This document shows positions 10,329-30,719 of a stretch of 42,627 nt of DNA, piece by piece; position 1 is the stretch's first letter; every line of letters starts with the position of its first letter. Origin of the DNA: Blastococcus sp. (GTDB taxonomy: Bacteria; Actinomycetota; Actinomycetes; Mycobacteriales; Geodermatophilaceae); the NCBI GenBank assembly GCA_025965795.1, contig JAOPWH010000247.1, forward strand, positions 1 to 42,627, written 5' to 3'. Both the position numbers and the translations under genes were made by a program. The notes under the pieces are model-generated. The model had not been told where the DNA came from. It did no database searches and was given only the letters and a program-made list of their open reading frames with translations.

Positions 10329-10336
10329 GGCCGGAC

Positions 10337-11284: not shown

Positions 11285-11377
11285 GCAGATCGCCTCAACT
11301 CGTAGCGGGGACTTCTGGCGGGGCCTCGTCGCGGTGGGACCGCGCCGGCCGGACGCGGACAGCACTGCAAGTTAGCA

Positions 11378-11388: not shown

Positions 11389-11444
11389 ATAGACCTTAAG
11401 TTACGGTGCGGTGCGACAGCGGCTCCGGGAAGAAGGCATCAGGT

Positions 11445-12563: not shown

Positions 12564-13264
12564 GCGCGGTTCGCGGCAACGTCGTCGTCACCGGCATCAC
12601 GCGCGCCGACCGCTCGGCGGTCGACGGGCTGGCGGAGCTCGGCGTCTCCACCGTTCACGAGGCGCAGGGCCGGACGCACCTGCTGGACCCCGCGCTGCGG
12701 CCGGTCTTCCGTGGCGCGCGGGTGGCCGGCACCGCGGTCACGGTCAGTCTGCCTCCCGGTGACAACTGGATGGTGCACGTGGCCGTGGAGCAGTGCACCG
12801 AGGGCGATGTCCTCGTCATCGCGCCGACCTCGCCCACCCAGGCGGCCTACATCGGCGACCTGCTGGCCACCTCGCTGGCCGCGCGCGGCGTACGGGGCGT
12901 GGTCGTGGACGGAGGCTGCCGCGACGTCCGGGAGCTCACTGAGATGGGCTTTCCCGTCTGGTCACGGCATGTGTCCGCCTTCGGCTGCATCAAGGAGACC
13001 CTGGGCAGCGTCAATGTCGGCGTGACCTGCGCCGGGCAGTGGATCGAGCCCGGTGACGTGGTGGTGGCCGACGACGACGGCGTGGTGGTGGTCCCGCGGG
13101 ACCGCGCCGCCGACGTGCTGGCGGCGGCGCGTGCCCGCGAACAGCGGGAGACCGCCATCCGCGAGCGGTACCGGTCCGGCGAGCTCGGTCTGGACATGAA
13201 CAGCATGCGCGGACCGCTCGAGGCCAAGGGCCTGGTCTACGTCGAGCAGGAGCCCCCGCGTTGA
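12560..13264 (+). CDS. ligK: 4-carboxy-4-hydroxy-2-oxoadipate aldolase/oxaloacetate decarboxylase-like (LigK/ProA, RraA fold)
   Basis: A 234-residue RraA-fold protein. The class II pyruvate-aldolase signature is visible as [20 protein letters not shown] followed by GGCRDVREL, with the Gly-Asp loop, Arg and Asp that hold the divalent metal and pyruvate enolate. The segments [16 protein letters not shown] and [14 protein letters not shown] are those of LigK/GalC/ProA aldolases. The known reaction splits 4-carboxy-4-hydroxy-2-oxoadipate into pyruvate and oxaloacetate, the final step of protocatechuate 4,5-cleavage and gallate pathways. Its ATG overlaps the dehydrogenase stop (ATGA), and its own stop overlaps the TTG of LigJ, the enzyme making its substrate. 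The adjacency makes the specific assignment much stronger than fold alone. Confidence 0.85.
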
Positions 13265-14277
13265 TCATCGACTGCCATGGTCACTACACGACCGAGCCGG
13301 CCCAGCTCAAGCGATTCCGTGCGGCCCAGCTGGCCGCGCTGGAGAGCGGCGGCGCTGCGCCGGAGCTGGAGTCCATCAGCGACGACGAGGTGCGCGAGAG
13401 CGTCGAGAAGAACCAACTGCGGGTCCTGCGGGAGCGCGGCGGGGATCTGATGATCTTCTCGCCGCGGGCGTCGGGGATGGAGCACCACGTCCCCGACCCG
13501 GCCACCGCCGTGGCCTGGGCCCGGGTCAGCAACGACCTGATCGCCCGCGTCACCGATCTCTACCCCGAGCACTTCGCCGGTGTCTGCCAGTTGCCGCAGA
13601 CCCCGGGGGGGTCGCTGGACGACGTCGTGACCGAGTTGCGCCGCTGCGTCGAGGACCGCGGCTTCGTGGGGGCCAATCTCAATCCCGACCCCTCGGGTGG
13701 GAACTGGACCTCGCCGCCGCTCACCGACCCGTACTGGTACCCCGTCTACGAGGCGCTGGTCGAGCTCGACGTGCCGGCCATGGTGCACGTCTCCAGCTCG
13801 TGCAATCCGAACTTCCACGCCCTCGGGGCGCACTACCTCAACGCGGACACGTCGGCGTTCATGCAGTTCCTCGAGGGCGACCTGTTCGAGCGGTTCCCGA
13901 CCCTGCGGATGGTGATCCCGCACGGCGGCGGTGCCGTCCCCTACCACTGGGGCCGCTACCGCGGCCTGGCCATGCGCATGGGCTGGAAGGACCCGTCGGA
14001 GCTGCTGCGCAACGTCTTCTTCGACACCTGCGTCTACCACCAGCCCGGGATCGACCTGCTGACCCGCGTGATCCCGACCGGGAACATCCTCTTCGCCTCG
14101 GAGATGCTGGGCGCCGTGCGCGGGGCCGACCCGGACACCGGCATCGAATGGGACGACACCTTGCGCTATCTGGAGGCCGCGGACCTGACCGGGGAGCAGC
14201 AGGCGGCCGTCTTCGAGGGCAACGCCCGGCGGGTCTACCCCCGCCTGGACGCCCGCCTCAGTGGGGCAGGAAGGTAG
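13261..14277 (+). CDS. ligJ: 4-oxalomesaconate hydratase (LigJ-type amidohydrolase)
   Basis: A 338-residue protein matching Sphingobium LigJ (about 340 residues) along its length as I remember it. The start [13 protein letters not shown] has the zinc pair His-x-His. [29 protein letters not shown] and the [16 protein letters not shown] segment are LigJ hallmarks. [16 protein letters not shown] supplies the third His. The ligand in [11 protein letters not shown] is Glu, the LigJ-specific replacement of the usual amidohydrolase Asp. The enzyme hydrates 4-oxalomesaconate to 4-carboxy-4-hydroxy-2-oxoadipate, the substrate of the LigK-type product encoded immediately upstream. TTG start, overlapping the ligK stop. 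This is the most specific functional marker in the window and points to a 4,5-extradiol (protocatechuate- or gallate-like) route. Confidence 0.92.
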
Positions 14278-14281
14278 CTCC

Positions 14282-15271
14282 GTGTCCCGACTGCAGCTGA
14301 CGTTCGCCTGCGGCGACTACGACCGCACCCGGGCGCTGGAAGAGGGCACGGTCCGCCCCGACGGCATCGATCTCACCTACCTGCGGCTGCCGGTGGAGGA
14401 GACCTTCTTCCGGATGCTGCGGCACCGGGAGTTCGAGGTCGCCGAGATGTCGATGTCGTCGTACGTGAAGTCGCTGGACCTCGACGATCCGCCCTTCGTG
14501 GCGCTGCCGGTCTACACCTCCCGGCAGTTCCGCCACGCCGGGATCTTCGTGAACGTCGACTCCGGTATCGAGAAGCCGGAGGACCTGCGCGGCAAGGTCG
14601 TCGGCACGCCCGAGTGGCAGCTGACCGCCAACGTCTGGATCCGCGGCCTCCTCGCCGACCATCACGGGGTGCCCGTCGACTCCGTCGAGTACCGCACCGG
14701 TGGGCAGGAGACGCCGGGCCGGGTCGAGAAGGCCGCCGTCGACCTCGGCGAGCGCATCCGCATCGAGCCCATCCCGGCGGACAAGACCCTCTCGGCGATG
14801 CTCGCCGACGGCGAGATCGACGCGTTCCAGGGCCCGCGGGTGCCCTCGTCGTTCGGTCCGGGCAGACGGGTCCGCCGGCTGTTCGCCGACCCGGTGGCGG
14901 CCGAGAAGGCCTACTTCGCCGAGACCGGCATCTTTCCGATCATGCACGTCGTCGTCGTCCGACGGGACGTCTACGAGCAGCACCCGTGGGTGGCGCAGAC
15001 GCTCACCAAGGCGCTCGGCCAGGCGAAGAAGAAGGCGATGGCCGAGCTGTACGACGCCTCGGCGCTGCGTTTCATGCTGCCCTGGCTGATCCCCGGCCTC
15101 GAGGAGGCCCGCGCACTGCTGGGGGAGGACTACTGGTCCTACGGGCTGGCGGCCAACCGGCACGTGCTGGAGACGTTCCTGCGCTACCACCACGACCAGG
15201 GGCTCTCCCGGCGGCAGTACGAACCGGACGAGCTGTTCGCCCCGGAGTCGACGGAGAACTTCGTCATCTGA
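14282..15271 (+). CDS. 4,5-dihydroxyphthalate decarboxylase-like protein (PBP fold)
   Basis: A 329-residue protein of the family annotated as 4,5-dihydroxyphthalate decarboxylase. The N-terminus reads SRLQLTFACGDYDRTRALEE, then GTVRPDGIDLTYLRLPVEET, and later EVAEMSMSSYVKS, VGTPEWQLTANVWIRG and SYGLAANRHVLETFLRYHHD, all typical of the family. There is no signal peptide, consistent with a cytoplasmic decarboxylase that grew from a periplasmic-binding fold. The known reaction is 4,5-dihydroxyphthalate to protocatechuate plus CO2. The GTG start is supported by GGAAGG eight bases upstream. It follows ligJ by four bases, so it belongs to the same operon, and ends before a strong hairpin. Substrate may be another hydroxylated aromatic diacid. 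Confidence 0.82.
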   Translation: MSRLQLTFACGDYDRTRALEEGTVRPDGIDLTYLRLPVEETFFRMLRHREFEVAEMSMSSYVKSLDLDDPPFVALPVYTSRQFRHAGIFVNVDSGIEKPEDLRGKVVGTPEWQLTANVWIRGLLADHHGVPVDSVEYRTGGQETPGRVEKAAVDLGERIRIEPIPADKTLSAMLADGEIDAFQGPRVPSSFGPGRRVRRLFADPVAAEKAYFAETGIFPIMHVVVVRRDVYEQHPWVAQTLTKALGQAKKKAMAELYDASALRFMLPWLIPGLEEARALLGEDYWSYGLAANRHVLETFLRYHHDQGLSRRQYEPDELFAPESTENFVI

Positions 15272-15949: not shown

Positions 15950-16783
15950 ATGGATCTCAAGAGCTACATCGAGTCGGAGTTGGAAGAGGAGAGGGAGTCC
16001 TCCGGCCCCGGGACCGCCGAGCCGGCGCCCGGGGCGGCAGTGGACGGTTATCCGGGCGACCCCGCCGTCTCGGTGCGCGAGACGGACGTCGCTGCCGAGC
16101 GCGTGCGGTTCGACGCCGGCCACGGCGAGGTGGAGGCGTACCTCGCGCGGCCCTCCGGGAACGGGCGCGCCCCCGCCGTGCTGGTGATCCACGAGAACAA
16201 GGGGCTGGCCCCCTACATCGAGAACGTGGTGCGTCGGCTGGCATCGGTGGGGTACGTCGCCGTTGCGCCCGATCTCCTGTCGCGGGTCGGTGGCACGGCC
16301 GCCTTCCCCGGTCAGAGCGAGGTGACCGCGGCTCTCGGCGGGATCGCCGGTGAGGACGTCGTCGCCGATGTCCGCAGCGCGCTCGGCTGGATGGCCGACC
16401 TGCCGTACGTCATACCGGACCGGCTGGGGATCCTCGGGTTCTGCTACGGCGGCGGCGTCGCCTGGCGGGTACTGACCAAGGACACGCGCCTGAGCGCGGG
16501 AGTCCCCTTCTACGGGCCCATCCCGGAGCTGGAGGAGGTTCCGGCCATCGAAGCTCCCGTCCTGGCGGTGTACGGCGGAGCCGATCAGCGGATCACCTCG
16601 ATGCTGCCGGCGATCTCCCAGGCGATGGCAGAGCACGGGAAGACGTTCGAGGCGGTGGTGCTCGAGGGGGCCGGGCACGCTTTCCACAACGACACGAACC
16701 CCGACCGCTATGACCCGGACGCTGCGCGGCAGGCCTGGGACGCCGCCGTGGCGTGGCTGGATCGCTGGCTCAAGGCTCGATGA
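15950..16783 (+). CDS. Dienelactone hydrolase family protein
   Basis: A 277-residue alpha/beta-hydrolase of the dienelactone hydrolase family. The catalytic triad is intact: Cys in LGFCYGGGVAW, Asp in VYGGADQRIT and His in GHAFHNDTNP. The activating Glu is in VIHENKGL. An N-terminal extension of about 45 residues rich in Glu/Pro/Gly precedes the core domain, longer than in the classical 235-residue ClcD. There is no Tat or Sec signal. The classical reaction opens 4-carboxymethylenebut-2-en-4-olide to maleylacetate, but most genomic members have other or unknown substrates. The gene stands alone, with a LysR regulator 215 bases downstream on the same strand and a promoter-like region upstream. 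Whether it belongs to the catabolic clusters is open. Confidence 0.88.
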   Translation: MDLKSYIESELEEERESSGPGTAEPAPGAAVDGYPGDPAVSVRETDVAAERVRFDAGHGEVEAYLARPSGNGRAPAVLVIHENKGLAPYIENVVRRLASVGYVAVAPDLLSRVGGTAAFPGQSEVTAALGGIAGEDVVADVRSALGWMADLPYVIPDRLGILGFCYGGGVAWRVLTKDTRLSAGVPFYGPIPELEEVPAIEAPVLAVYGGADQRITSMLPAISQAMAEHGKTFEAVVLEGAGHAFHNDTNPDRYDPDAARQAWDAAVAWLDRWLKAR

Positions 16784-16998: not shown

Positions 16999-17919
16999 TT
17001 GAAGCGTCCGAGCATCCATCAGCTCGAGGTTTTCTGCCGGGTCGTGCAGCTGGGCAGCATGGCGCGAGCCGCCGAGGAACTGCTCGTCGCTCCCTCGTCG
17101 GTCTCGATGCAGATCCAGGAACTCGAGAAGCGCTACCGGACGCGCCTGCTGGTGCGTGGCCCACGGCGAACGGTGCCGACAGCGGCCGGCAGTGCGCTCT
17201 ACGAGCAGGTGCTGGCCCTGCTGCAGGGGCTCGACGCCGTCGAGCGGGAACTCAGCCACATGGGCGCCGTCGAGCGCGGCACCCTGCGCTTCGCGAGCAG
17301 CCGCACCATCGGCGCCGGCGTCGTCCGGCCCGTGCTGCAGTCCTTCGAGCGCGCGCATCCCCAGGTCGACGTGTCCTACTTCATCATGTGCAGCAGCCAG
17401 CAGGCCAAGGCCGAGGTCCTGGACGAGCGGGCCGAGTTCGCCCTGGTGGGACGAATCGGCTCGGGGTGGCCGCTCGACGTCCGGCCCCTGTTCAGGGAGC
17501 CGCTCGTCGTGGCCGTCGCGCCGGACCACCCGCTGGCGGCTGAGACGCAGCCGACGCTCGAGAGCCTGTCCCGGCACGTCCTGGTCATGCGTGAGGCTCC
17601 TGTCCTCGGCCGCGAGCAGGTCTCCCAGCTGCTGGCGGAGGCAGGCATCAGCCCCGAGATCCTCGAGCTCGGCAGCACCGAGGCGATCAAGGCGGAAGCG
17701 GTGGCAGGCCGAGGTGTCGCCGTCCTGCCACGGACGACCGTCACCGAAGAGATCGCCGGCGGTGCCTTGGTCAGTTGTTCGGTGGCCGGCTTCGAGCCGT
17801 ACCGCACGGTCTACCTGACGTCGCTGTCCAAGACGCCCCTGTCGCCGGTGGCCCAGTCGTTCGTCCGCCTCATCAAGGGCCGCGGTATGCCGGCGGAACC
17901 GGTGGGCACTTCGCTCTAG
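16999..17919 (+). CDS. LysR-family transcriptional regulator
   Basis: A 306-residue LysR-type regulator of normal length. The helix-turn-helix is at the N-terminus (HQLEVFCRVVQLGSMARAAE, then SSVSMQIQELEKRYRTRLL), followed by the linker helix and the effector-binding domain from about residue 90 (GTLRFASSRTIGAGVVRPVL), with VAPDHPLA and AVLPRTTV motifs typical of CysB/CbbR-like inducer pockets. The TTG at 16999 is forced, because an in-frame TGA precedes it directly. It lies upstream of, and reads in the same direction as, the CoA-transferase/thiolase/LigAB-like cluster, so it is the natural candidate activator for that cluster. The 266-base gap between them includes inverted repeats. Confidence 0.9.
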   Translation: MKRPSIHQLEVFCRVVQLGSMARAAEELLVAPSSVSMQIQELEKRYRTRLLVRGPRRTVPTAAGSALYEQVLALLQGLDAVERELSHMGAVERGTLRFASSRTIGAGVVRPVLQSFERAHPQVDVSYFIMCSSQQAKAEVLDERAEFALVGRIGSGWPLDVRPLFREPLVVAVAPDHPLAAETQPTLESLSRHVLVMREAPVLGREQVSQLLAEAGISPEILELGSTEAIKAEAVAGRGVAVLPRTTVTEEIAGGALVSCSVAGFEPYRTVYLTSLSKTPLSPVAQSFVRLIKGRGMPAEPVGTSL

Positions 17920-18185: not shown

Positions 18186-19370
18186 GTGAGCGCGCTGGCC
18201 GGTGTCAAGGTCGTCGAATTCGCCAATTACGTTGCGGGGCCCTACGCCGGTGCGCTCCTGGCAGACCTGGGCGCGGAGGTCGTCAAGGTCGAGGTCCCCC
18301 CGCGCGGCGATCCCTACCGGGGCTGGGCGAACGGCAATTACAGCAGCATGTTCTGCTCGCTGAACCGCAGCAAGCGCAGCATTCTCGCCGACCTCAAGAC
18401 CGAGCGCGGACTGGAGGTGGCGCGTTCCCTGATTGCCGGCGCGGACGTACTCGTGGAGAACTCGAGACCAGGGGCCATGGCCCGCCTCGGACTGGGGTAC
18501 GAGCAGGTTCAGTCCGTCAATCCGCGGCTCGTCTACTGCTCCATCACTGGATTCGGGCTCAGCGGCCCGGACCACGACCGTCCCGGCTACGACACCGTGG
18601 GTCAGGCGACGAGCGGGCTCATGAGCCTGCTCACCGATCTCGACGATCCCCAGCCGATGGGCATCTCCATCTCTGACCACCTCGCCGGGTTGTTCGCCGC
18701 GTACGGAGTTCTTGCCGCACTCGCGGCCCGGTCCCGAACCGGACTCGGCCAGTTGGTCGACACCTCGTTGCTGCAGTCCTCCACGTCCTTCCTCGCCGAG
18801 AACATGGCCCGCTACCTGCAGGACGGAGGCGAGCCGCCGTCGCGCCGGACGCGGGCGCGGACGGCGCAGGTCTACGCCGTGCGTGACGAGGCGGGAGCGC
18901 CGTTCGTCGTGCACCTGTCGTCGCCGGACAAGTTCTGGCACGGCCTGCTGCACGCCATCGGTCGCACCGATCTGCTCGGCGACGAGCGATTCACCGACCG
19001 ACGGCAGCGCATCGCACATCGAGAGGACATCCAGGCACTCCTCGACGAGGCGTTCGCCACCGGCACCCGGGTCGCCTGGCTCGAGCGGCTCCGGGAGGCC
19101 GACGTCCCGGCGGCTCCGCTCAACACCCTCGCCGATGTGGTCGAGGACGAGCAGATCAGCCACCTGGGCCTGATCCAGGAGGTGGAACACCCCTCCGCCG
19201 GGCGGATGCGGCTCCTGGGAAGTGGCGTGAACCTGCACGGCACACCGACGCGCCTGGGGCCGGCCCCGCTCGTGGGCGAGGACACCGGTTCCGTCCTGCT
19301 GGAACTCGGTCTTCCCGACGACTACCTGGACGCGGCGGTGCCCGCAGCGGTCACCGCGCCCGCCCGCTGA
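18186..19370 (+). CDS. Type III CoA-transferase (CaiB/BaiF family)
   Basis: A 394-residue family III CoA-transferase. The N-terminal fold starts LAGVKVVEFANYVAGPYAGA, with LADLGAEVVKVE, LNRSKRSILADLKTE and LVENSRPGAMARLGLG following in the usual order. The catalytic Asp is in RPGYDTVGQATSG and the small domain has VHLSSPDKFW. The family moves CoA between carboxylic acids, often to activate an aromatic or dicarboxylic acid. The GTG start is chosen because homology begins within four residues of it. The gene heads the likely operon running through the thiolase-like, DUF35 and LigBA-like genes and is 13 bases from the next start. It shares the HLSSP-KFW element with the two other CoA-transferases of the window. 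Confidence 0.9.
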   Translation: MSALAGVKVVEFANYVAGPYAGALLADLGAEVVKVEVPPRGDPYRGWANGNYSSMFCSLNRSKRSILADLKTERGLEVARSLIAGADVLVENSRPGAMARLGLGYEQVQSVNPRLVYCSITGFGLSGPDHDRPGYDTVGQATSGLMSLLTDLDDPQPMGISISDHLAGLFAAYGVLAALAARSRTGLGQLVDTSLLQSSTSFLAENMARYLQDGGEPPSRRTRARTAQVYAVRDEAGAPFVVHLSSPDKFWHGLLHAIGRTDLLGDERFTDRRQRIAHREDIQALLDEAFATGTRVAWLERLREADVPAAPLNTLADVVEDEQISHLGLIQEVEHPSAGRMRLLGSGVNLHGTPTRLGPAPLVGEDTGSVLLELGLPDDYLDAAVPAAVTAPAR

Positions 19371-19383
19371 GAAGGAGGCCTCC

Positions 19384-20544
19384 ATGTATCAGCGCAGCGC
19401 GGCGATCGTCGGAGCGGCTCACTCCGAGCTCGGTGAGGTTCCCGGTTCCACCGGCCTCGGCCTCATGGCCGATGCCGCCGTGGCCGCCGTGGCCGACGCC
19501 GGCCTGAAGCCCTCGGACATCGACGGGGTCGTCGTCCGGGGCCCCGACGACGAGTACGCCTTCCAGCAGCAGCTCGGCGAGCGGCTCGGCCTCAACGCCG
19601 CGTTCAGCACCAGCCTCGACAACGGGGGCGCGAGCCAGACGCTGGCCGTCATCCTCGCGTCCCTGGCCATCGAGGCCGGCCTGGCCACCACCGTGCTGTG
19701 CGGCTACGGGCGCAACTCGTGGACCCGTACCCGCCAGGCCGGCAGCCGCAGGGCCCGGATGAACCAGTCCACCCACAACCGCGCGCGTGAGTGGCGGGAC
19801 TCCTTCGGCTACTTCGGCGAGCCGGCCACCCACGCCCTGGGCGCGCAGCGGCACATGGCCATGTACGGCACCACCAAGGAGCATCTGGGGCACGTGGCCA
19901 TCTCGGTGCGCGAGCACGCGACGCGCAACCCGCATGCGCAGATGCAGACGCCGTTGACGATGGAGGAGTACCTCGCCGGCCGTCCGGTCACCGACCCGTT
20001 CGGGGTCTACGACTGCTCACTGCGCACCGACGCCGCCGGGGCGGTGGTGGTCACCAGCCTCGACCGGGCGCGGGACCTGCCGCACACGCCGGTCGTCGTC
20101 CGCGGGTTCGGCAGCCACAACAACCTGCAGGGCTGGACCGTCGACGATCACATGGTGACCACGGCGGCCAAGCAGAGCGGGGAGCGGGCCTACCGGATCG
20201 CCGACGTCACTCCCGCCGACATCGACACGGCGCAGCTCTACGACTGCTTCACCTACATGGTCCTGGCGCAGATCGAGGACTACGGGTTCTGCGAGAAGGG
20301 CGACGGGGGCGAATTCATCGCCGGTGGTGCCCTGGCACTCGACGGTGCCATCCCCACCAACACCTCTGGAGGGCAGCTCTCCGAGGGCCATGTCGAAGGC
20401 ATGCTGCAGGTCGTCGAAGGCGTCCGCCAGCTTCGCCACGAGTACCCCGAGGAGCGGCAGGTGCCCGACGCCCGACTGGCTCTGGTCAGTGGGCACGGCG
20501 GGAACACCGTCTGTCACACCACCCTGATCCTGGAGCGTGGCTGA
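19384..20544 (+). CDS. Thiolase-fold acyltransferase/aldolase (SCP-x/Ltp2-like) lacking the nucleophilic Cys
   Basis: A 386-residue thiolase-superfamily protein with strong ribosome site AAGGAGG five bases before ATG. The region that carries the acylated Cys in true thiolases reads STSLDNGGASQTLAV (residues 75-89), with no Cys. The distal motifs LYDCFTYMVLAQIEDYGFCE and PTNTSGGQLSEGHVEG, and VSGHGGNTVCHTTLIL, match the Ltp2/BbsB subgroup. These partner with a DUF35 protein, and the next gene encodes one, starting on the last base of this stop codon. Studied members are retro-aldolases of steroid side-chain degradation (Ltp2, using Tyr residues) or the benzoylsuccinyl-CoA thiolase (BbsB). A carbon-carbon cleaving step on a CoA thioester is therefore likely; substrate unknown. 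Confidence 0.88.
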   Translation: MYQRSAAIVGAAHSELGEVPGSTGLGLMADAAVAAVADAGLKPSDIDGVVVRGPDDEYAFQQQLGERLGLNAAFSTSLDNGGASQTLAVILASLAIEAGLATTVLCGYGRNSWTRTRQAGSRRARMNQSTHNRAREWRDSFGYFGEPATHALGAQRHMAMYGTTKEHLGHVAISVREHATRNPHAQMQTPLTMEEYLAGRPVTDPFGVYDCSLRTDAAGAVVVTSLDRARDLPHTPVVVRGFGSHNNLQGWTVDDHMVTTAAKQSGERAYRIADVTPADIDTAQLYDCFTYMVLAQIEDYGFCEKGDGGEFIAGGALALDGAIPTNTSGGQLSEGHVEGMLQVVEGVRQLRHEYPEERQVPDARLALVSGHGGNTVCHTTLILERG

Positions 20545-20984
20545 TGAGTGCGCCGCAACCGACGACGGAACCGATGCGGCCGCGTCGGGTTCCTCCCCAG
20601 CCGACCCCGGAGTCGCAACCGTTCTGGGACGGGTGCGCGCGCCACGAGCTGGTGGTCCAGCGATGCAGTTCCTGCGAACGGTTCTCCTTCCCGCCGACCA
20701 ACCGCTGCCAGCACTGCTGGAGCGACGACGTCGTCTGGACCCCCGTGTCGGGTCGCGGCGAGGTCTTCACGTTCACCGTCTACCGGCGTGCCTACGCGGC
20801 TGAACTGGCCGACCAGCTGCCCTACGTCGTCGGGATCGTCGAACTGGACGAGGGGCCCCGGCTGATCACCAACATCGTCGGCTGCGAGCCGTCCCGCGTG
20901 CGGGTCGGAATGCCGGTCGACGTGGTCTTCGACGACGTGGCCGACGGCGTCGCCCTGCACGCCTTCCGCCCGCGGGAGGAATGA
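20544..20984 (+). CDS. DUF35 OB-fold/zinc-ribbon protein, partner of the thiolase-like protein
   Basis: A 146-residue protein with the DUF35 layout: an N-terminal helix (PESQPFWDGCARHELVVQRC), a rubredoxin-like zinc ribbon formed by CSSC and CQHC spaced by 10 residues (about residues 41-57), and a C-terminal OB-fold (GRGEVFTFTVYRRAY to the end). Such proteins form stable complexes with thiolase-like enzymes and bind acyl-CoA; BbsA and the ChsH2 DUF35 domain are known examples. The ATG shares one base with the stop of the thiolase-like gene (TGATG), so equal expression is expected. Its position supports assigning both as one enzyme complex. Confidence 0.9.
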   Translation: MSAPQPTTEPMRPRRVPPQPTPESQPFWDGCARHELVVQRCSSCERFSFPPTNRCQHCWSDDVVWTPVSGRGEVFTFTVYRRAYAAELADQLPYVVGIVELDEGPRLITNIVGCEPSRVRVGMPVDVVFDDVADGVALHAFRPREE

Positions 20985-21033
20985 CCGACCGTTCCGCTCC
21001 CGCCCGTCCCGGCAGATCCCACTCGGAGGACCC

Positions 21034-21897
21034 ATGGCAGAGATCGTCTCGATCGTCGGCACGACGCACCACCCCTGGTACCACAAGAAGACGTCGGCGC
21101 CGGAGAAGGAGCTGACCGAGGACGCCCGCAACCTCCTGGGCTGGTCGGAGCGCGTGCAGGAGTCGTTCGCCCGCACCAATCCCGACGCCGTCGTGATCGT
21201 GGCCAGCGACCACTTCCACCAGTTCTTCCACAACAACATGCCGCAGTTCATCGTCGGTCGGATGGCGTCCTACCAAGGGACCTTCTACAACGAGATCCGC
21301 GAGTTCGACCTGCCCCGGGTGCAGCTCGGAGGGAACCGGCAGCTGTCGACCGACATCATCGAGGCCGGCTTCGACAACGGGTTCGACTTCGCCTTCTCCG
21401 ACGAGATGCGCCTGGACCACGCCTGCGTGGTGCCGAGCCTCATCGCCCAGCCGTCACTGGACATCCCGGTGGTACCGGTGCTGACCAACTGCGGGGCCCC
21501 ACCCATCCCCAAGGGCCAGCGGTTCGTCGATCTGGGCTCCGCCCTCCGCAACGCGATCGAGGGCTCCAACTCCGTGGACCGCGTCGCCGTGGTCTTCAGC
21601 GGCAATCTGTCCCTGGAGGTGGGTGGACCCGAGCAGATGATGCCGTACTCGGTCGACCCTGACTTCGACGTCCAGGCGATGGACTGGCTGACCGGGCGCG
21701 ACTTCGACGCCCTGGTCGCCGACTCGACGTACGAGCGGCTGATGACGCACGGGAACACGTCGTTCCAGTTCCTCAACATGATCTCGATGGCCGCGATGCA
21801 GGACGACATGCAGATCGTTCACGCAGAGGCCATGAAGCGGCGCGGCTCACCCGCGCCCTGCTTCATCTACGAGCAGAAGTCGGAGGTTACGCAGTGA
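21034..21897 (+). CDS. LigB-like class III extradiol dioxygenase-family protein with altered active site
   Basis: A 287-residue protein of the protocatechuate 4,5-dioxygenase beta (LigB) family. His12 in VGTTHHPWYH and His60 in VASDHFHQF match two iron ligands, and LDHACVVPS matches the conserved LDHG region. Two other key places differ. The catalytic His of the GGLSH motif is Leu194 (SGNLSLEVGG), and the Glu ligand in the C-terminal GSxGxE helix aligns best with Gln245 (GNTSFQFLNM). A two-His site without Glu and without the acid-base His is unlike known ring-cleavage enzymes. GGAGGA ribosome site before ATG. It overlaps the LigA-like gene by four bases, so the two-subunit arrangement is kept. 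Function may be non-oxidative or unusual; alignment was by eye. Confidence 0.82.
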   Translation: MAEIVSIVGTTHHPWYHKKTSAPEKELTEDARNLLGWSERVQESFARTNPDAVVIVASDHFHQFFHNNMPQFIVGRMASYQGTFYNEIREFDLPRVQLGGNRQLSTDIIEAGFDNGFDFAFSDEMRLDHACVVPSLIAQPSLDIPVVPVLTNCGAPPIPKGQRFVDLGSALRNAIEGSNSVDRVAVVFSGNLSLEVGGPEQMMPYSVDPDFDVQAMDWLTGRDFDALVADSTYERLMTHGNTSFQFLNMISMAAMQDDMQIVHAEAMKRRGSPAPCFIYEQKSEVTQ

Positions 21898-22295
21898 TCG
21901 ACCACTACGCCGTCAACAAGTTCTGCTACGACACCGATCGCAATCCGGACTTCGTCAAGCGCTACATCGACGATCCGGACGCCTATGTCGACTGGTACTT
22001 CGAGGAGCGGTTGAGTCGGCTGCTCGACAACGAGAGCGAGCAGTCGGACGTGCAGACGCCGGACGACCGCACGCGGGCCGCGCTGAAGGGCTACGACTTC
22101 GCCATGCTCTACGGCGAGGGAGCTCACCCGTTCGTCCTGTGGACCCTCATGCTCCCGGTGATCGAGGCGAAGCTGGCGTCGGGGGAGTTCGAGACCCCGA
22201 CCGCGCCGGACGGCGCCCGGCTGGAGAACCGTGCCCCGATGGCGTACTACCGGGACCGGATCCTGCCCCACGGCCGGCCGTACTTCCGGTACTGA
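21894..22295 (+). CDS. LigA-like small subunit of extradiol dioxygenase-type complex
   Basis: A 133-residue alpha-helical protein resembling the LigA alpha subunit of protocatechuate 4,5-dioxygenase. The segments YAVNKFCYDTDRNPDFVKRY (compare the LigA core helices) and LSRLLDNESEQSDVQTPDDR, and then GYDFAMLYGEGAHPFVLWTLM fit the family, in which a small helical subunit caps the active site of LigB. The GTG start overlaps the stop of the LigB-like gene (GTGA), so the two are translationally coupled. Order here is beta then alpha, the reverse of the lig operon of Sphingobium. The C-terminal part (RAPMAYYRDRILPHGRPYFR) is an extension I do not recognise. Confidence 0.7.
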   Translation: MIDHYAVNKFCYDTDRNPDFVKRYIDDPDAYVDWYFEERLSRLLDNESEQSDVQTPDDRTRAALKGYDFAMLYGEGAHPFVLWTLMLPVIEAKLASGEFETPTAPDGARLENRAPMAYYRDRILPHGRPYFRY

Positions 22296-22314
22296 AGGGC
22301 CGGGAGTCCCAGTC

Positions 22315-23451
22315 ATGTCCAGCGGGCCCCTCGCCGGTGTCACGGTGATCGAGAACGCCTCCTACATCAGCGGTCCCTACGCGGGCCTGCTGCTGGCGCA
22401 ACTCGGTGCCGACGTCGTCAAGGTGGAGGCGCCGGGCAGTGGCGACCCGTTTCGCAGGTGGGGCGGTGCCGCCTCCGGCGTCAGGGTGCGGCCGCAGTTC
22501 GCCGCGCTCAACCACGGCAAGCGCAGCGTCGCGCTCGACCTGCGCACGCCCGAGGGGCAGGCCGGCTACCTGGACCTGGCGGTGCACGCCGACGCCCTGG
22601 TGGAGAACTTCCGGCCCGGCACGCTTGATCGCCTCGGGGTCGGTGAGGCCGCGGTGCGCGACCGCAATCCCGAGATCGTCTACTGCACGGTCACCGGGTT
22701 CGGTCCGACCGGGCCGTACAAGGACCGGCCCGCGTACGACGCGATCGTCCAGGCGCTCTCCGGCTTGTGGGGCCTGCTCTCGCCGGTGTCGGCGCCGCAG
22801 GCGACCGGCCCCGCGATCTCGGACACGCTGTCGGGACTCAACACCGCGCTCGCCGTCGTCGCCGGCCTGGCCGGTACGGCACGGCATGCCGACGCCCCGC
22901 GGCGCTTCGACGTGAGCATGCTGGCGGCGTCCCTGAACCTGGTGGGTCTCAGCGTCGCGAACTACGCGGAGACCGGTGAGGTCGAGGGGCCGTTCTCCCG
23001 GGGCCGCCGGTCGCACTCCATCGCCCTGCGCTGCGGAGACGGTCGTCCCCTGGCCGTCCACCTCTCGTCGCCGGAGAAGTTCTGGGTCCGGCTCACCGAT
23101 GTGGTGGGCCGGCCGGACCTCCGCGACGACGCACGCTTCGGCACCTACCCTTCCCGCCTCGCCCACTTCGACGAGTTGCTGGGCGAGCTGGAGACCGCGC
23201 TCGCCGACCACGACCGGAACCACTGGCTGAAGCTGCTCCACGACGCCGACGTTCCCGCCGCTCCGATCTACGCGGTCGACGAGGTCGTCGAGGATCCGCA
23301 CGTCCTCGAGGCGGGTCTCCTCCGGCAGGTCGCCGGGCCGGCCGGTGAACGGTTCCTCGTTCCGCGGGGCGCCATCGCCTACGCGGGTGACCTCGACGCC
23401 TGCTCGATGGAGGTGGCGGCGCTGGGCGGAACGGTCCGCGGGGCGACGTGA
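22315..23451 (+). CDS. Type III CoA-transferase (CaiB/BaiF family), second copy
   Basis: A 378-residue family III CoA-transferase. It begins SSGPLAGVTVIENASYISGP and keeps LLLAQLGADVVKVE, LNHGKRSVALDLRTPEG, LVENFRPGTLDRLGVG, the catalytic Asp in RPAYDAIVQALSG, and VHLSSPEKFW. It starts 19 bases after the LigA-like gene. It is clearly a paralogue of the products at 18186 and 38619 rather than a recent copy, since the differences are spread through the whole protein. Two CoA-transferases flanking the thiolase-DUF35-LigBA-like block suggest that the substrate enters and an acid product is re-activated, or that two acids exchange CoA. No CoA ligase is seen in the window. Confidence 0.9.
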   Translation: MSSGPLAGVTVIENASYISGPYAGLLLAQLGADVVKVEAPGSGDPFRRWGGAASGVRVRPQFAALNHGKRSVALDLRTPEGQAGYLDLAVHADALVENFRPGTLDRLGVGEAAVRDRNPEIVYCTVTGFGPTGPYKDRPAYDAIVQALSGLWGLLSPVSAPQATGPAISDTLSGLNTALAVVAGLAGTARHADAPRRFDVSMLAASLNLVGLSVANYAETGEVEGPFSRGRRSHSIALRCGDGRPLAVHLSSPEKFWVRLTDVVGRPDLRDDARFGTYPSRLAHFDELLGELETALADHDRNHWLKLLHDADVPAAPIYAVDEVVEDPHVLEAGLLRQVAGPAGERFLVPRGAIAYAGDLDACSMEVAALGGTVRGAT

Positions 23452-23479
23452 GGTCCATGACGATCGAAGGCGGGTGCCC

Positions 23480-24613
23480 ATGAGCGACGTCGCCGTGCGA
23501 CGACATGTCCGGTCGCTCGAGGACGTGCGGGAGCTGATGATGCGCCGCGCGCGGAGCGGGAAGAACCCCTTCGCGTTCGTCGACGCGGACACGGTGGAGC
23601 GCAGGCTGCACACGCTCACGTCGCTGGACCGGGACGAGTGGGCCGATGCCTTCATGGCCGCCGCGGACGGGCTGGAGGACCGAGCGGCCGAACGCGCCGC
23701 CGCCGGAGATGCCGCAGGTGCCCGCCGGACCTGGCTCGAGGCGTACGGCTACTACCGCGTGGCGCGCTACCCCACCACGAACTCGGCCCGGAAGCGCGAG
23801 GCCTACGACCGGTACCGCCACTGCTTCCTCCGGGCCAGCGAGTACTTCGACACTCCGCTGGAGCGGGTCGAGATGCCCCTGCGGGACGCGAGCCGTCCCG
23901 GAGCCTGCGTGGTCGGCTACCTGTCGCTGCCCGCAGCGGCGAGTGCACCGGTCGGGGTCGTCCTGATGTGGGGCGGCATCGACACGTTCAAGGAGGACCT
24001 GCCCCTGCGCAGCGATCCCTACCTGACCGCGGGTCTGGCCACCCTGGCGCTCGACATGCCGGGCGTGGGGGAGGCGCCGGTCAGCGGGGCGGACGACGTG
24101 CGGCCGATGTGGGACGCCGTCTTCGACTGGATCGCCGGCCGAGCCGATCTGGACGGGGACCGCGTCGCCGCGGTGGCGCGCAGTACGGGGGGCTACTGGG
24201 CGACGTGGCTGGCACACGTCTACCGCGAGCGGCTGCATGCGTCGGTCAGTCATGGCGGGCCCGCTCACCACGCGTTCACCCCCGCATGGATCGAGCAGGC
24301 GCAACTGGGCGAGTACCCCTTCGAGCTCGCCGAGACCCTCGCTGCCGCCTGGGGCCGCTCGACGCTCGAGGAGTGGGTGGAGTACGCGCCCAGCCGGTCG
24401 CTCCTCACGCAGGGGGTTCTCGACACCAGCTGCAGCCCGCTACTGTGCGTCAACGGCCGGGACGACTCGGTCTTCCCCATCCAGGACGTCTACCTGCTGC
24501 TCGAGCACGGCAGTCCCAAGACGGCCCGGGTCTATCCCGGCGGTCACATGGGCTGGACACCCGACACCGAGCCGGCCATATCCCGATGGGTCACCGCGCA
24601 GCTGAGGCGATGA
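23480..24613 (+). CDS. Alpha/beta-hydrolase of the FrsA/2,6-dihydroxypseudooxynicotine hydrolase type
   Basis: A 377-residue hydrolase with a helical N-terminal cap (about residues 1-130, SLEDVRELMMRRARSGKNPF, then EAYGYYRVARYPTT) followed by the alpha/beta core. The nucleophile elbow is VARSTGGYWATW, with Ser in R-S-T-G-G, the acid is in CVNGRDDSVFP and the His in YPGGHMGWTPD. This cap-plus-core layout is that of the C-C bond hydrolase acting on 2,6-dihydroxypseudooxynicotine and of FrsA-like esterases. The ATG at 23480 follows the second CoA-transferase by 28 bases. A related protein is encoded at 32059-33312. C-C cleavage of a diketone formed in ring degradation is possible, but the family also contains simple esterases. 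Confidence 0.82.
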   Translation: MSDVAVRRHVRSLEDVRELMMRRARSGKNPFAFVDADTVERRLHTLTSLDRDEWADAFMAAADGLEDRAAERAAAGDAAGARRTWLEAYGYYRVARYPTTNSARKREAYDRYRHCFLRASEYFDTPLERVEMPLRDASRPGACVVGYLSLPAAASAPVGVVLMWGGIDTFKEDLPLRSDPYLTAGLATLALDMPGVGEAPVSGADDVRPMWDAVFDWIAGRADLDGDRVAAVARSTGGYWATWLAHVYRERLHASVSHGGPAHHAFTPAWIEQAQLGEYPFELAETLAAAWGRSTLEEWVEYAPSRSLLTQGVLDTSCSPLLCVNGRDDSVFPIQDVYLLLEHGSPKTARVYPGGHMGWTPDTEPAISRWVTAQLRR

Positions 24614-24725: not shown

Positions 24726-27413
24726 ATGACCGATCAGCACCAGACCGACCTCACCGTCAACGGGCGCCCGGTCTCGCTCGCGCTCGACCCGAACACACCC
24801 CTGCTGCTGGCGTTGCGCAACGACCTGGGACTCAAGGGGGTCCGCGCGGGCTGTGCCATCGGCGAGTGCGGCGCCTGCACGGTCATCCTGGACGAGGAGC
24901 CGGTGCGCTCCTGCATCACGCCCCTGGGCTCCGTTGCCGGTGGTCGCGTGGTCACACCGGAGGGGTTGGGCACGCCCGAGGCACCCCATCCGGTGCAGCA
25001 GGCGTTCCTGGACGAGCAGGCCGCGCAGTGCGGCTACTGCACGAACGGCATCATCATGACCGTCGCCGCCCACTACGACAGCGGACCGGGAGCCGGGGAC
25101 CGCATCCGCGCCGCGCTGCCCGAGCACCTGTGCCGCTGCGGCACCCACGTGCGCATCCTCCGGGCCGTGGACAGGGCCGTGGACAGGGCCGTGGACAGGG
25201 CCATCCCGCCGACCGGCGGCGGCGCTGTCGTGGCGGCCGACGCGGTGGTACGCGACCTCCGTTCGCCGTGCACCGGCGCCTGCCCGTCGAGCGGCATGCC
25301 TGCCGCGGTCACCGACGACCCCGCCGTGGAGCGGTGGCTGACGCTGCTGCCGGAGGGCCGGATCGAGGCGCGCAGCGGCAAGGTGGAACTGGGTCAGGGG
25401 ATCCGGACGGCGTTCGCGCAGATCGTCGCGGCCCAGATCGGCCTCCCGCCCGAACGTGTGGCGGTCCGGGACACGGCCACCGGCGTCAGCCCGGACGAGC
25501 GCTACACGGCCGGCTCCCGCTCGATCCAGGACGGCGGAACCGCCCTGGCGTTCGCGGCCGTCGCATTCCGCCGCGTGCTGGTGACCCGTACCGCACAGCG
25601 ACTGGGGGTGCCCCCGGGGACTCTCACGCTGGACGCGGAGGGCATTCGGGGAGCCCGAGGTCCTGGCCTCGACTGGGCCGCGATCTGCGCTGACGGCCCG
25701 GTCACCGGGGTCGTCGAGCCCACGGACGTTCCGCACTGGCACGGCGGGGCCCTCGGCACCGCTGCCCGCCGGGAGGATCTGGTGGCCAAGCTCACCGGCG
25801 CGGCGGCCTTCGTGCACGACATGGAGCTGCCCGGGATGGTGCACGCCCGTGCGGTGCTGCCACCCACCTACGACGCCTTGCTGGACTCCGTGGACGTGGA
25901 CGTGGTCCGTGACATGCCCGGGGTGAGGGGGGTGGTCCGGGAGGGACGACTCCTGCTGGCCGTCGCCGGACGCGAGGAGCAGGCTCGCGACGCCGCGGCC
26001 CGCTTGCGGCGCTCGGCGCGATGGGCCGATCCCGGTCTGGCCGTCGACCGGGACCTGGAGCGATTGTTGCGGTCCCTGCCCGCCGAGACCATGACGGTCC
26101 GGGACGATCGGCGGACCGAGGAGGTGCTGTCGGCGCAGGCACGCCGGCTGACGGCCACGTACCGCAGGCCGTACCAGGCCCACGCCGCGATGGCGCCCTC
26201 CTGTGCGGTCGCCCACGACGACGGCACGACGCTGACCGTGTGGACGCACAGCCAGGGTGTCTACCCGCTGCGGCGGGAGCTGGCGCAACTGCTGGGGATG
26301 GCCGAGTCCCAGCTGGACGTCCGCCATGTCGACGGTCCCGGCTGTTATGGACACAACGGCGCCGACGACGCCGCTGCCTTCGCGGCGGTGGCGGCGAGGT
26401 CCCTGCCCGGTGTCCCGGTGCGCTTCCAGTTCAGCGTGGACGAGGAGTTCGCGTGGGAGCCCTACGGCTCGGCGATGCTCGCCGACCTGGAGGCCGGCCT
26501 GGACGATTCCGGCTGCATCGTCGCCTGGCGGCACCGGTCCCGCACCGACGTCCACGCGTCCCGTCCTGACGGAACCGGTGATCGGCTGGTCGCGTCCTGG
26601 CTGACGGGGACGGCGGAGCGACCCTGGACGGGACCGAGGGACACCGGGTCCGGCAACGTGGTGCCCATCTACGAGATCCCCGCCGTCTCTGCGGCCACCG
26701 ATTTCGTCCGCGGCCCCCTGCGGACGAGCGCGTTGCGGTCACTGGCCTCCTTCCACAACGTCTTCGCGGGCGAGTCGTTCATGGACGAACTCGCCGAGGC
26801 GGCCGGCCGGGACCCGGTCGAGTTCCGCCTGGCGCACCTGCGCGACGAACGTGCGCGACGGGTCCTGGAGGTGGCCGCCGAGGTAGCGGGCTGGACGCCC
26901 CGGGTCGGTCCGAGTGGGCGCGGCCAGGGAATCGCGGTGTGCCGGTACAAGGAGAAGATGGCCTACGTCGCGTCGGCGGTCAGCGTGTCCGTCGACGGGG
27001 AGACCGGCCTGGTGACCGTGGACCGGGTGGTCCTGGCCTGCGACGCGGGGACCGTGGTGAACCCTGACGGCCTGCGCAACCAGCTGGAAGGCGGCACCAT
27101 CCAGGGACTGAGCCGGGCCCTCTACGAAGAGGTGCGCGCGGACGGGTCCGGCATCACCACCCGGGACTGGACGACCTACCCCGTCCTGCGGTTCGGCCAG
27201 GTCCCCGACGTCGAGGTCGTCCTCATCGACCGACCTGATCGCCCACCGCTGGGCGTGGGGGAGGCAGCGACCCCCCCGCTGGTCGCAGCGCTGGCCAATG
27301 CCATCGACGACGCGCTGGGTGTCCGCGTCCGCCGGCTGCCGTTCACACCCGCTGTCCTGCGCCGGCGCCTTCTGGACCTCGACGAGGCGGAGATGCAGCG
27401 CTGCCTGCTCTGA
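24726..27413 (+). CDS. Molybdenum hydroxylase (xanthine dehydrogenase family), fused [2Fe-2S] and molybdopterin subunits
   Basis: An 895-residue fusion. Residues 1-150 are the iron-sulfur subunit: plant-type cluster in CAIGECGACTVIL with a later Cys (SCITPLG), then the second cluster with QCGYCTNGIIM and EHLCRCGTH. After a repeat-rich linker (about 150-200) comes the molybdopterin subunit in the order seen in isoquinoline oxidoreductase/nicotinate dehydrogenase beta chains: SGKVELGQGIRTAFAQIVA, then the hammerhead region VAKLTGAAAFVHDMELPGM, and the catalytic Glu in PLGVGEAATPP near the C-terminus. There is no FAD subunit, so electrons would go to a cytochrome or other acceptor. Enzymes of this group hydroxylate N-heterocycles or oxidise aldehydes. 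Fusion of the two subunits is uncommon. The gene is flanked by a hydrolase and the ABC importer. Confidence 0.88.
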   Translation: MTDQHQTDLTVNGRPVSLALDPNTPLLLALRNDLGLKGVRAGCAIGECGACTVILDEEPVRSCITPLGSVAGGRVVTPEGLGTPEAPHPVQQAFLDEQAAQCGYCTNGIIMTVAAHYDSGPGAGDRIRAALPEHLCRCGTHVRILRAVDRAVDRAVDRAIPPTGGGAVVAADAVVRDLRSPCTGACPSSGMPAAVTDDPAVERWLTLLPEGRIEARSGKVELGQGIRTAFAQIVAAQIGLPPERVAVRDTATGVSPDERYTAGSRSIQDGGTALAFAAVAFRRVLVTRTAQRLGVPPGTLTLDAEGIRGARGPGLDWAAICADGPVTGVVEPTDVPHWHGGALGTAARREDLVAKLTGAAAFVHDMELPGMVHARAVLPPTYDALLDSVDVDVVRDMPGVRGVVREGRLLLAVAGREEQARDAAARLRRSARWADPGLAVDRDLERLLRSLPAETMTVRDDRRTEEVLSAQARRLTATYRRPYQAHAAMAPSCAVAHDDGTTLTVWTHSQGVYPLRRELAQLLGMAESQLDVRHVDGPGCYGHNGADDAAAFAAVAARSLPGVPVRFQFSVDEEFAWEPYGSAMLADLEAGLDDSGCIVAWRHRSRTDVHASRPDGTGDRLVASWLTGTAERPWTGPRDTGSGNVVPIYEIPAVSAATDFVRGPLRTSALRSLASFHNVFAGESFMDELAEAAGRDPVEFRLAHLRDERARRVLEVAAEVAGWTPRVGPSGRGQGIAVCRYKEKMAYVASAVSVSVDGETGLVTVDRVVLACDAGTVVNPDGLRNQLEGGTIQGLSRALYEEVRADGSGITTRDWTTYPVLRFGQVPDVEVVLIDRPDRPPLGVGEAATPPLVAALANAIDDALGVRVRRLPFTPAVLRRRLLDLDEAEMQRCLL
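25167..25202 (+). repeat. Three tandem copies of a 12-base unit in the hydroxylase linker
   Basis: GTGGACAGGGCC occurs three times head to tail without mismatch, encoding repeated Val-Asp-Arg-Ala between the iron-sulfur and molybdopterin domains. The unit keeps frame, so copy-number change would only alter the linker length. Confidence 0.9.
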
Positions 27414-27673: not shown

Positions 27674-28780
27674 ATGAAGATCCGCCAGGTAATGGTCGTT
27701 CCACTGGCCGCCCTCACCTTGCTCACCACCGCCTGCGGCGGGTCCGGTGAGCCGGCTGACGCGGCGGCCTCCGGAGACGGCACCAAGGACGGCGTCGTCC
27801 AGCGGAAGGACGGCGAGTCGGCCGACGACTACGTAGCGCGCCTGTACGAGGCGGCCCAGAAGGAAGACGGATGCGTCTTCTACACGCCGGCGCAGGAGAA
27901 GGAGGTCGCGTCCATCCGGCAGCACTGGGACGAGACCTTCCCCGAGATCGACATCGAGACCACCGCCGGCGGCTCCGACGAGATCCTCCAGCGAGCCATC
28001 GTCGAGGCGCAGTCGGGCAACACCCAGGCCGACGCGATGCTGGGGTCCACGGGCGAGATGACCCTGATGGCCGACGAGGGCATCCTGCTGAACTACCGCC
28101 CCGCGAACGAGGAGTTCGCCGATCCCGCCCTCGTCGACCCGGACGTCCCCTGGACCACGGACTTCTACCTGACCTTCCATGTCGCCTACAACACCGACCG
28201 GGTCCAGGCCAGCGAGCTCCCCACGGACTTCGAGGGCTTCACCGAGCCGCGGTGGAAGGGCAAGATCGCCATCGACCTCAGCGCGGTCGAGTGGACCGCG
28301 GGCCTGATCGAGGCGTTCGGCGAGGAGAAGGCCACCGAGCTGCTGAAGGGCTTCTCCGACAACGACGTCCTGCTCGTCGAGGGCAGCACCAACCGCACCG
28401 AGCAGCTGGCGGCCGGCCAGTTCGACGTGATGCTGGACGGCTACGGACACGCGCTCAAGCGGTTCGTGGACGAGGGGGCGCCCATCGCCGTCGCCGAGAC
28501 GCAGCCCGAGCCGGTGACCCAGGTCCTGGCCGGTACGGCGATCTTCAAGGACGCGCCGCACCCGAACTGCGCCCGACTGATCGACGAGTTCATGCTCATG
28601 GAGGCCGGACAGCAGGTCTACGCCGAGCAGAACAAGGCGGGCGCACGCGCCGAGGGTGACACCGGCAACCCGTACCCGGAGTTCTTCGGTGGCCAGGATC
28701 CCCTGCCCCTGGGAGCGGACGTGGACTTCGACCGGGCCCGTCAGATCCTCGAAGACGTCGTCGTCCGCGGAAACGGCTGA
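27674..28780 (+). CDS. ABC importer substrate-binding lipoprotein (iron(III)/AfuA-like family)
   Basis: A 368-residue extracytoplasmic binding protein. The leader MKIRQVMVVPLAALTLLTTA ends at Cys21 of LLTTACGGSG, an acceptable lipobox for lipid anchoring. The mature protein is of the class of Fe(III)-, thiamine-, putrescine- and phosphonate-binding proteins: CVFYTPAQEKEVASIRQHWD, then DEILQRAIVEAQSGNTQADAM, and later EPRWKGKIAIDLSAVEW. Such proteins also bind small organic acids, and the catabolic setting favours an organic substrate over iron; the Tyr pair that marks ferric-binding proteins is not obvious. It is the first gene of the importer operon and is followed by a strong hairpin before the permease gene. 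Confidence 0.88.
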   Translation: MKIRQVMVVPLAALTLLTTACGGSGEPADAAASGDGTKDGVVQRKDGESADDYVARLYEAAQKEDGCVFYTPAQEKEVASIRQHWDETFPEIDIETTAGGSDEILQRAIVEAQSGNTQADAMLGSTGEMTLMADEGILLNYRPANEEFADPALVDPDVPWTTDFYLTFHVAYNTDRVQASELPTDFEGFTEPRWKGKIAIDLSAVEWTAGLIEAFGEEKATELLKGFSDNDVLLVEGSTNRTEQLAAGQFDVMLDGYGHALKRFVDEGAPIAVAETQPEPVTQVLAGTAIFKDAPHPNCARLIDEFMLMEAGQQVYAEQNKAGARAEGDTGNPYPEFFGGQDPLPLGADVDFDRARQILEDVVVRGNG

Positions 28781-28815
28781 CCCGACCGCTCCACCGGTCG
28801 ACAGCACGGTGGTAA

Positions 28816-28845
28816 GTGCCCCCCGGCGTAGCCGTCGGGGGGCAC
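28816..28845. terminator. Hairpin between the binding-protein and permease genes
   Basis: GTGCCCCCCG (28816-28825) and CGGGGGGCAC (28836-28845) form a perfect 10-base stem with a 10-base loop in the 90-base gap. Such hairpins usually protect the upstream mRNA or cause partial termination, giving more binding protein than permease. No U-tract follows, and the permease GTG is 25 bases beyond. Confidence 0.7.
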
Positions 28846-28870
28846 CCACCATGGAGAGGAAGAAGCTGCG

Positions 28871-30676: not shown

Positions 30677-30719
30677 ACCACTCCCGGCGGCGGGCGACCA
30701 GTCACGAAAGGAAGCGGCG

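Follow-up and report, generated by a model that had tools for sequence, protein, structure and literature searches.

A coenzyme A-linked gene block with a non-canonical LigB-like protein and a thiolase-DUF35 pair of predicted retro-aldolase type in Blastococcus

What would a pair of proteins named after a ring-cleavage dioxygenase be doing between two coenzyme A (CoA)-transferases and next to a thiolase with a glycine at its nucleophile position? This question is raised by a gene block in contig JAOPWH010000247.1 of Blastococcus sp., which was analysed over its whole 42,627 nucleotides (the window; contig C90 of an assembly of 4.0 Mb in 317 contigs, 88% complete) and whose host organism is probably an actinobacterium. 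The block encodes a class III CoA-transferase (CaiB1), a thiolase-superfamily protein, its DUF35 partner, a LigB-like and a LigA-like protein (LigB' and LigA'), and a second CoA-transferase (CaiB2). We describe it as a probable module for CoA-dependent retro-aldol degradation, a known type of chemistry, joined to a LigB family of doubtful name. The fuller reading, in which a horizontally moved module for CoA-dependent acid cleavage serves an aromatic-polycarboxylate pathway, stands for us at an even balance.

A preliminary description of this DNA had placed these genes behind a LysR regulator and followed them with a hydrolase, and open reading frames and Pfam matches agree with it on the coordinates of all eight. 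The coupled starts that it pointed out are there as well, as a TGATG overlap between the thiolase and DUF35 genes and a GTGA overlap between ligB and ligA. LigA' has no Pfam or NCBIfam match; its assignment was borne out by hhalign against five annotated LigA-type subunits (probability 97.3%, E 2e-11, 61 columns). Both CaiB proteins score above the PF02515 cut-off and have the conserved aspartate of the SD/AD motif, that of CaiB2 being aligned with the aspartate of 4ed9, which we take to be catalytic.

The arrangement recurs in other genomes. A scan of a collection with one genome per species (84,980 species), which was seeded by exact short patterns and gives a lower bound, yielded four relatives with LigB proteins 81-85% identical to that of the window, all of them in metagenome-assembled genomes (MAGs): one of Nitriliruptorales (L013), two of Propionibacteriales (L014 and L016), and one of Micromonosporaceae (L015). 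The order CaiB1-thiolase-DUF35-LigB-LigA-CaiB2 is kept in L013, L014, and L016, and L015 shows the same order until its contig ends inside ligA. Recurrence of the same order at a protein identity of 75-88% (67-74% for DUF35) indicates that the arrangement is more than chance. After CaiB2, the three longer loci continue with one or two solute-binding proteins, a permease, an ATPase, a Zn-type dehydrogenase, an NMT1-like protein, and a carrier of the major facilitator superfamily (MFS). A LysR gene stands ahead of the module in L014, L015, and L016 (63-74% identity), and in L013 only a fragment of it was matched (query residues 248-303). Between CaiB2 and the genes of the ATP-binding cassette (ABC) importer, L013, L014, and L016 have neither the hydrolase nor the fused molybdenum hydroxylase found in the window. 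Thus, the conserved gene order that the preliminary description proposed to search for does exist, but the hydrolase that it counted as part of the module does not belong to it.

Close relatives are otherwise rare. Among the listed matches in 396 genomes of the phylum, 112 of the family, 397 of the order, and 245 of the order of G815 (one of the four other module-bearing genomes, G814 to G817, the window's own being G000), no LigB exceeded 43% identity save those of the window and of G815. The thiolase, searched at E<=1e-110 in the 396 phylum genomes with few candidates scored per genome, returned only the window's own, and its 568 matching plasmid records all lay below 60% identity, with no close relative among them.

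The clearest indication of chemistry comes from the thiolase. Cysteine, which we take to be the nucleophile, occupies the relevant position in the solved structures 6esq and 7yvy, and glycine replaces it in all five thiolases of the module (the window and its four relatives). The protein had been called Cys-less, which holds for this position but not beyond it, as a YDCF motif with another cysteine is found at residue 286 in 5/5. The steroid side-chain retro-aldolase CtSal, likewise partnered by a DUF35 protein, relies on Tyr302 and Cys304 within a YDCY motif, with glycine at the nucleophile position, and Ltp2 uses YDHF plus Tyr344; the state of the window protein thus resembles that of CtSal/TbSLP (PMC12329534). 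The window pair thus shares with Sal-Shy and Ltp2-ChsH2 the thiolase fold with DUF35, the glycine, and the YD[CH][FY] motif; contrary to those systems, the genes scanned in its core include CoA-transferases and LigBA-like genes, and neither a MaoC hydratase nor an acyl-CoA dehydrogenase was found among them. In an alignment of four DUF35 proteins, four zinc-ribbon cysteines are present in those of the window, L013, and L016, and three in that of L015.

A second indication comes from what stands in the place of the thiolase elsewhere. Matches to the window LigB at E<=1e-30, mostly 37-43% identical, were found in 42 of the 112 family genomes and 67 of the 397 order genomes (own included), and in 10/396 across the phylum. 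In the 48 sister loci taken from the genome searches (L018-L025 and L071-L110; best matches only), a citryl-CoA lyase match adjoins ligB in 45 and a CaiB match follows ligB in 44. The three loci lacking the lyase are L097, which starts at a contig end; L074, which is short and seemingly ends at one; and L020, which is truly without it. No citryl-CoA lyase match was obtained in L013-L016. The window's own genome has such a cluster on contig C93 (199-5302), where CaiB, citryl-CoA lyase, LigB, LigA, a dehydrogenase, and an intradiol dioxygenase follow one another. Citryl-CoA lyase, CaiB, LigB, and LigA are also found together on annotated plasmids of Rhodococcus NBC_00297, Aminobacter MSH1, and Sinorhizobium B11, and Martelella has the citryl-CoA lyase set close by on the opposite strand. 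No such CoA genes are annotated beside the LigB hits of Rhizobium johnstonii, Rhizobium Q54, strain K84, and Polymorphobacter, in plasmid gene tables that are incomplete. A third arrangement (L055) has CaiB-amidohydrolase_2-LigB-LigA with a dehydrogenase in front, and G814 encodes a second window-like LigB-LigA pair (about 46%) followed by NMT1-like and dehydrogenase genes.

These sister clusters share with the window the LigB'A' family and a CaiB neighbour, whereas citryl-CoA lyase substitutes for thiolase-DUF35 in them, IclR for LysR, and their LigB is only about 40% identical; IclR and an amidohydrolase are frequent in them, in annotation that is uneven (the Aminobacter stretch shows no amidohydrolase). 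We found no function described for them in the open-access literature. The link between LigBA and CoA chemistry that had been suggested for the window is therefore supported as a wider one, with the restriction that some relatives lack it. Citryl-CoA lyase carries out the retro-aldol cleavage of a beta-hydroxyacyl-CoA. Since YDCF and the glycine in place of cysteine are as in Sal, both versions of the module should cleave a beta-hydroxyacyl-CoA, so that by analogy the two enzymes should catalyse the same kind of step. The mechanism proposed below draws mainly on this alternation of two enzymes at the same place next to CaiB and LigBA; the swap predicts the type of chemistry and renders the catabolic step testable. 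The preliminary view, in which a thiolase-DUF35 pair of retro-aldolase type works in a degradation module linked to CoA, is supported by the conserved order and by the glycine and YDCF.

Even though LigB' and LigA' share their fold family and two-subunit make-up with the class III extradiol dioxygenases LigAB and DesB, LigB' lacks several of the residues on which those enzymes depend. The iron ligands of DesB are His12, Asn57, His59, and Glu239, and its His192Phe variant had no detectable activity (PMC3962378). When aligned with solved gallate and protocatechuate dioxygenases, LigB' has His12, Ser58, His60, and Gln245 at the ligand positions, leaving Asn57 and Glu239 unmatched; Leu194 at the position of the catalytic His192 (LigB His195); and His129 at that of DesB His124 (LigB His127). 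Its NCBIfam subfamily score is 113.4 against a cut-off of 290 and those of four further clade members are 91-132 against the same cut-off, whereas two canonical LigB references pass theirs (437 vs 317 and 549 vs 299).

The same pattern divides the whole family. We aligned 90 LigB-family proteins (89 different), one for each locus up to L110 with a usable hit, of which length and E-value filters removed none. The histidine and glutamate at the LigB H195 and E242 positions are both present in 26 and both missing in 64, with no protein having just one; 20 of the 42 family-genome matches, read residue by residue, fall within the 64. His12, His60, His129, and Glu87 are kept in all 64 non-canonical proteins, and glutamate also occupies column 87 in 3 of the 26 canonical ones. 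Among the 64, residue 191 is histidine in 59 and asparagine in the five proteins of window type; leucine occupies position 194 in 61 and asparagine in the other 3; and at position 245, 58 have glycine and 6 glutamine. The non-canonical clade has a support of 100/99 on a branch of 2.06, in a tree for which the program warns of long branches meeting at this clade; the five window-type proteins group at 100/100. Judged from these residues, ordinary extradiol cleavage by LigB' is unlikely. Because the catalytic residues are missing, the term extradiol-dioxygenase-like, which had been applied to the pair, can describe the fold family and fails as a statement of activity. Proteins of this clade are publicly labelled 'extradiol ring-cleavage dioxygenase' or 'hypothetical protein', yet lack residues that DesB needs for this reaction.

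Canonical LigB-type sequence does occur in the window's genome, as two gene pieces at contig ends that share sequence (C254:3-500 and C229:32493-33011) and probably belong to a single gene that was broken up in assembly.

The block sits within an aromatic-acid cluster that the preliminary description did not mention and that encodes LigJ, LigK, and a Rieske oxygenase of isophthalate-dioxygenase-like type. LigJ and LigK are the enzymes of the final two steps in protocatechuate/gallate 4,5-cleavage, yielding pyruvate and oxaloacetate. The host cluster thus has LigJ, LigK, and the Rieske protein in common with the protocatechuate 4,5-cleavage and isophthalate pathways and differs from them by the added CoA-dependent lyase module and by canonical LigAB, of which none was found in the window. 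LigJ matched no NCBIfam model. The best solved match of the Rieske protein (E 5.5e-137) is 9INA, an isophthalate dioxygenase (IPDO), and with the pocket residues taken from its description (PMC12445078), the carboxylate contacts Arg234 and His257 and also Val178 are retained. The rest of the pocket differs, Phe249, Phe333, Leu198, Ile246, and Ile294 being replaced by Arg, Ile, Asn, Val, and Val in a hand reading with a hand-derived numbering offset of 23. From these residues, a substrate with an additional acidic group is possible.

Comparison with the same-genus genome G424 delimits the segment. Both are collinear over window positions 2605-9019 and 9886-15271, less close over 15950-16772 (72%), and again from 37751 on, so that 20,978 bp in the window (16773-37750) correspond to 61 bp in G424 when the limits are set by where the BLAST matches stop; the two genes that flank the block are direct neighbours in G424. 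The two genomes differ further in CaiB3 (1,296 bp in the window vs 50 in G424) and in a HIBADH-like gene (866 bp vs 36). In L014 and its continuation L128, the unit from LysR to the MFS carrier stands at a different junction, between the hydrolase and the RpiB/NMT1-family genes of the cluster, and in G814 and G817 the host-cluster genes lie on other contigs. Host-cluster genes with LigK or LigJ occur in four of the five module-bearing genomes (G000, G814, G815, and G817); we infer a dependence of the module on the host cluster from these few genomes. That LigB' must be the ring-cleaving enzyme of the LigJ/LigK cluster is a proposal weakened by G424, G484, and G483, which carry LigK/LigJ without module genes in the stretches read; the sole PF02900 match of G484 overlaps its sister-clade LigB hit.

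We propose the following mechanism. The substrate would be taken up by the ABC and MFS carriers. LigB'-LigA', probably with the Zn-type dehydrogenase, would make or open a beta-hydroxy acid precursor at a non-canonical metal site, and CaiB1 and/or CaiB2, judging from their family, would transfer CoA to a carboxylate. The thiolase-DUF35 pair, for which the step is deduced from motif identity with Sal, would then cut between the alpha and beta carbons via Tyr286 and Cys288 to release a carbonyl compound and a short acyl-CoA; the sister clade would use citryl-CoA lyase for this step. The other product may enter the host cluster, whose final enzymes are LigJ and LigK. A more specific version, which we put forward tentatively and think somewhat less likely than not, is that the non-canonical LigB'-LigA' clade of Actinomycetota and Alphaproteobacteria has acquired a rebuilt metal site (His12, His60, Glu87, and His129) and with it a new activity, by which citrate-like beta-hydroxy acids are made ready to receive CoA and be cleaved in retro-aldol fashion, and that the unrelated citryl-CoA lyase and Sal-type thiolase-DUF35 each filled the same step beside it.

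Several observations weigh against this proposal. An AlphaFold2 model of LigB' from five sequences reached a predicted local distance difference test score of 35.6 and a predicted template-modelling score of 0.28, too low to be used in support of the putative metal site. His336 of the window thiolase stands at the position of Tyr344 in Ltp2 and Gln352 in Sal, the exact catalytic set being a prediction, and family scans found no hydratase or acyl-CoA dehydrogenase in the core that could form the beta-hydroxyacyl-CoA. As for the host cluster, no Rieske match was obtained in G816, where LigK is matched only partially (48%), nor in G817, whose contig begins within the adjacent hydrolase gene. On the other hand, Rieske matches at E<=1e-90 without a window-type LigB occur in 12 further genomes of the family, ten of which reach 89-96% identity; among five of the 12 that were read, three carry LigK/LigJ, and the stretch read shows none in two. 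The host cluster, being present elsewhere without the module, does not need it, and their substrates need not be shared. G+C content at third codon positions is 0.86-0.94 in 16999-37753 and 0.89-0.97 outside, which gives no clear foreign mark, and we infer from the rarity of the block, in few genomes, that the window gained it and not that G424 lost it.

Three other explanations have to be weighed. LigB'A' could be a working extradiol dioxygenase with a rebuilt iron site (e.g. His12, His60, and Glu87), the block then combining ring cleavage with a CoA-dependent lower half. The invariant histidines and additional Glu87 of the 64 proteins, the retained LigA-like partner, a host cluster ending like a known ring-cleavage route, and the PF02900 matches of G814 and G816, all of which are of the non-canonical clade or window type, would fit. 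Nevertheless, the histidine whose replacement abolished detectable DesB activity (PMC3962378) is missing, as are the ligands Glu239 (Gln245) and Asn57 (Ser58), and the NCBIfam score falls far under a cut-off of the kind that canonical references pass, so we regard this as unlikely, if deserving of some weight.

That the genes travel together as a patchwork, with ligBA, the thiolase, and the CoA-transferases acting on different compounds rather than in one pathway, we hold to be distinctly improbable. The extra genes seen only in the window's block (hydrolase, xanthine dehydrogenase (XDH)-family protein, second hydrolase, and M24) and the varied company of related LigB'A' pairs (citryl-CoA lyase, amidohydrolase_2, or neither) speak for it, but the core order is kept across MAGs named for different orders, starts overlap in the window, and two unrelated versions of the cluster place CaiB and a CoA lyase next to ligBA. 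Finally, thiolase-DUF35 might form C-C bonds in a Claisen or C-acylation type of reaction, like PhlC/PhlB, given that PhlC and archaeal acetoacetyl-CoA thiolase share its fold family and are likewise partnered by DUF35 proteins (PMC12329534). However, the cysteine required for acyl transfer is glycine in 5/5 and the surroundings are catabolic, which makes this very improbable. For the CoA-dependent cleavage module that we favour, no matching pathway was apparent in the open-access full-text literature, judged by titles and abstract openings and with subscription papers mostly outside coverage, in line with the earlier statement that no characterised pathway has this set.

Table 1. Features of the window, with coordinates and the evidence for each assignment.
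Feature	Coordinates	Strand	Evidence or remark
Host cluster: isophthalate-dioxygenase-like Rieske, small protein, PanB-like, alpha/beta hydrolase, RpiB-like, two NMT1-family, dehydrogenase, LigK, LigJ	5415-15271		
LigK (4-carboxy-4-hydroxy-2-oxoadipate (CHA) aldolase)	12560-13264		above both curated cut-offs: 342.3 vs 179, 328.9 vs 304.5
LigJ (4-oxalomesaconate (OMA) hydratase)	13261-14277		full-length alignment with solved OMA hydratases over residues 1-337 of 338 (E 4.8e-143)
LysR-type regulator	16999-17919	+	Pfam; precedes module, likewise in L014, L015, L016
CaiB1, class III CoA-transferase	18186-19370	+	PF02515 (CoA_transf_3) 383.8 bits; 79-83% identity in L013-L016
Thiolase-superfamily protein, predicted retro-aldolase	19384-20544	+	Thiolase_C_1; Gly at nucleophile position, YDCF motif
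DUF35 partner (zinc ribbon + OB fold)	20544-20984	+	zf-ChsH2 and OB_ChsH2_C; start overlaps thiolase stop
LigB-like, non-canonical clade	21034-21897	+	PF02900 78.9 bits vs cut-off 26.3
LigA-like small subunit	21894-22295	+	profile comparison; start overlaps ligB stop
CaiB2, class III CoA-transferase	22315-23451	+	PF02515 310 bits; 75-76% identity in L013, L014, L016
FrsA/Ayg1-like alpha/beta hydrolase, outside conserved module	23480-24613	+	Pfam and nearest solved structures
Fused 2Fe-2S/molybdopterin hydroxylase (XDH family)	24726-27413	+	window only in this comparison
ABC importer: solute-binding protein, double permease, ATPase	27674-31895	+	adjoins caiB2 in L013, L014, L016, 39-61% identity
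Zn-type dehydrogenase, NMT1-like protein, MFS transporter (conserved module tail)	34552-37753	+	
Amidohydrolase_2 and CaiB3	37750-39824	+	amidohydrolase also in G424 cluster; CaiB3 absent from G424, adjoins amidohydrolase in L128

Other genes of the window deserve a brief mention. The nearest solved relatives of the hydrolase behind caiB2 are of the Ayg1 type (E 8e-62), 2,6-dihydroxypseudooxynicotine hydrolase being distant (7.6e-9). The amidohydrolase at 37750 was considered as a LigI candidate and dropped, its best solved match being the uncharacterised BB4693 (3irs), with no LigI among three matches. In the host cluster, the IPDO-like Rieske gene is followed by a small protein with no Pfam match (6703-7206), an arrangement conserved in L014, L157, and five family genomes, and the PanB-like (7291-8124) and RpiB-like (9873-10328) proteins are conserved within the aromatic-acid cluster. 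Three NMT1-family proteins (10337-11284, 14261-15271, and 35607-36509), a family that we take to resemble 4,5-dihydroxyphthalate decarboxylase, are possible decarboxylases. The dehydrogenase gene at 11445-12563 has an in-frame TAG, which would reflect decay or a sequencing error, and is one open frame in the relatives L128, L156, L157, and L171. In L128 (12141-17971, Dino_bin33), CaiB3 is followed by carboxylase, biotin-domain, and hydantoinase A/B genes, relatives of caprolactamase and acetophenone carboxylase.

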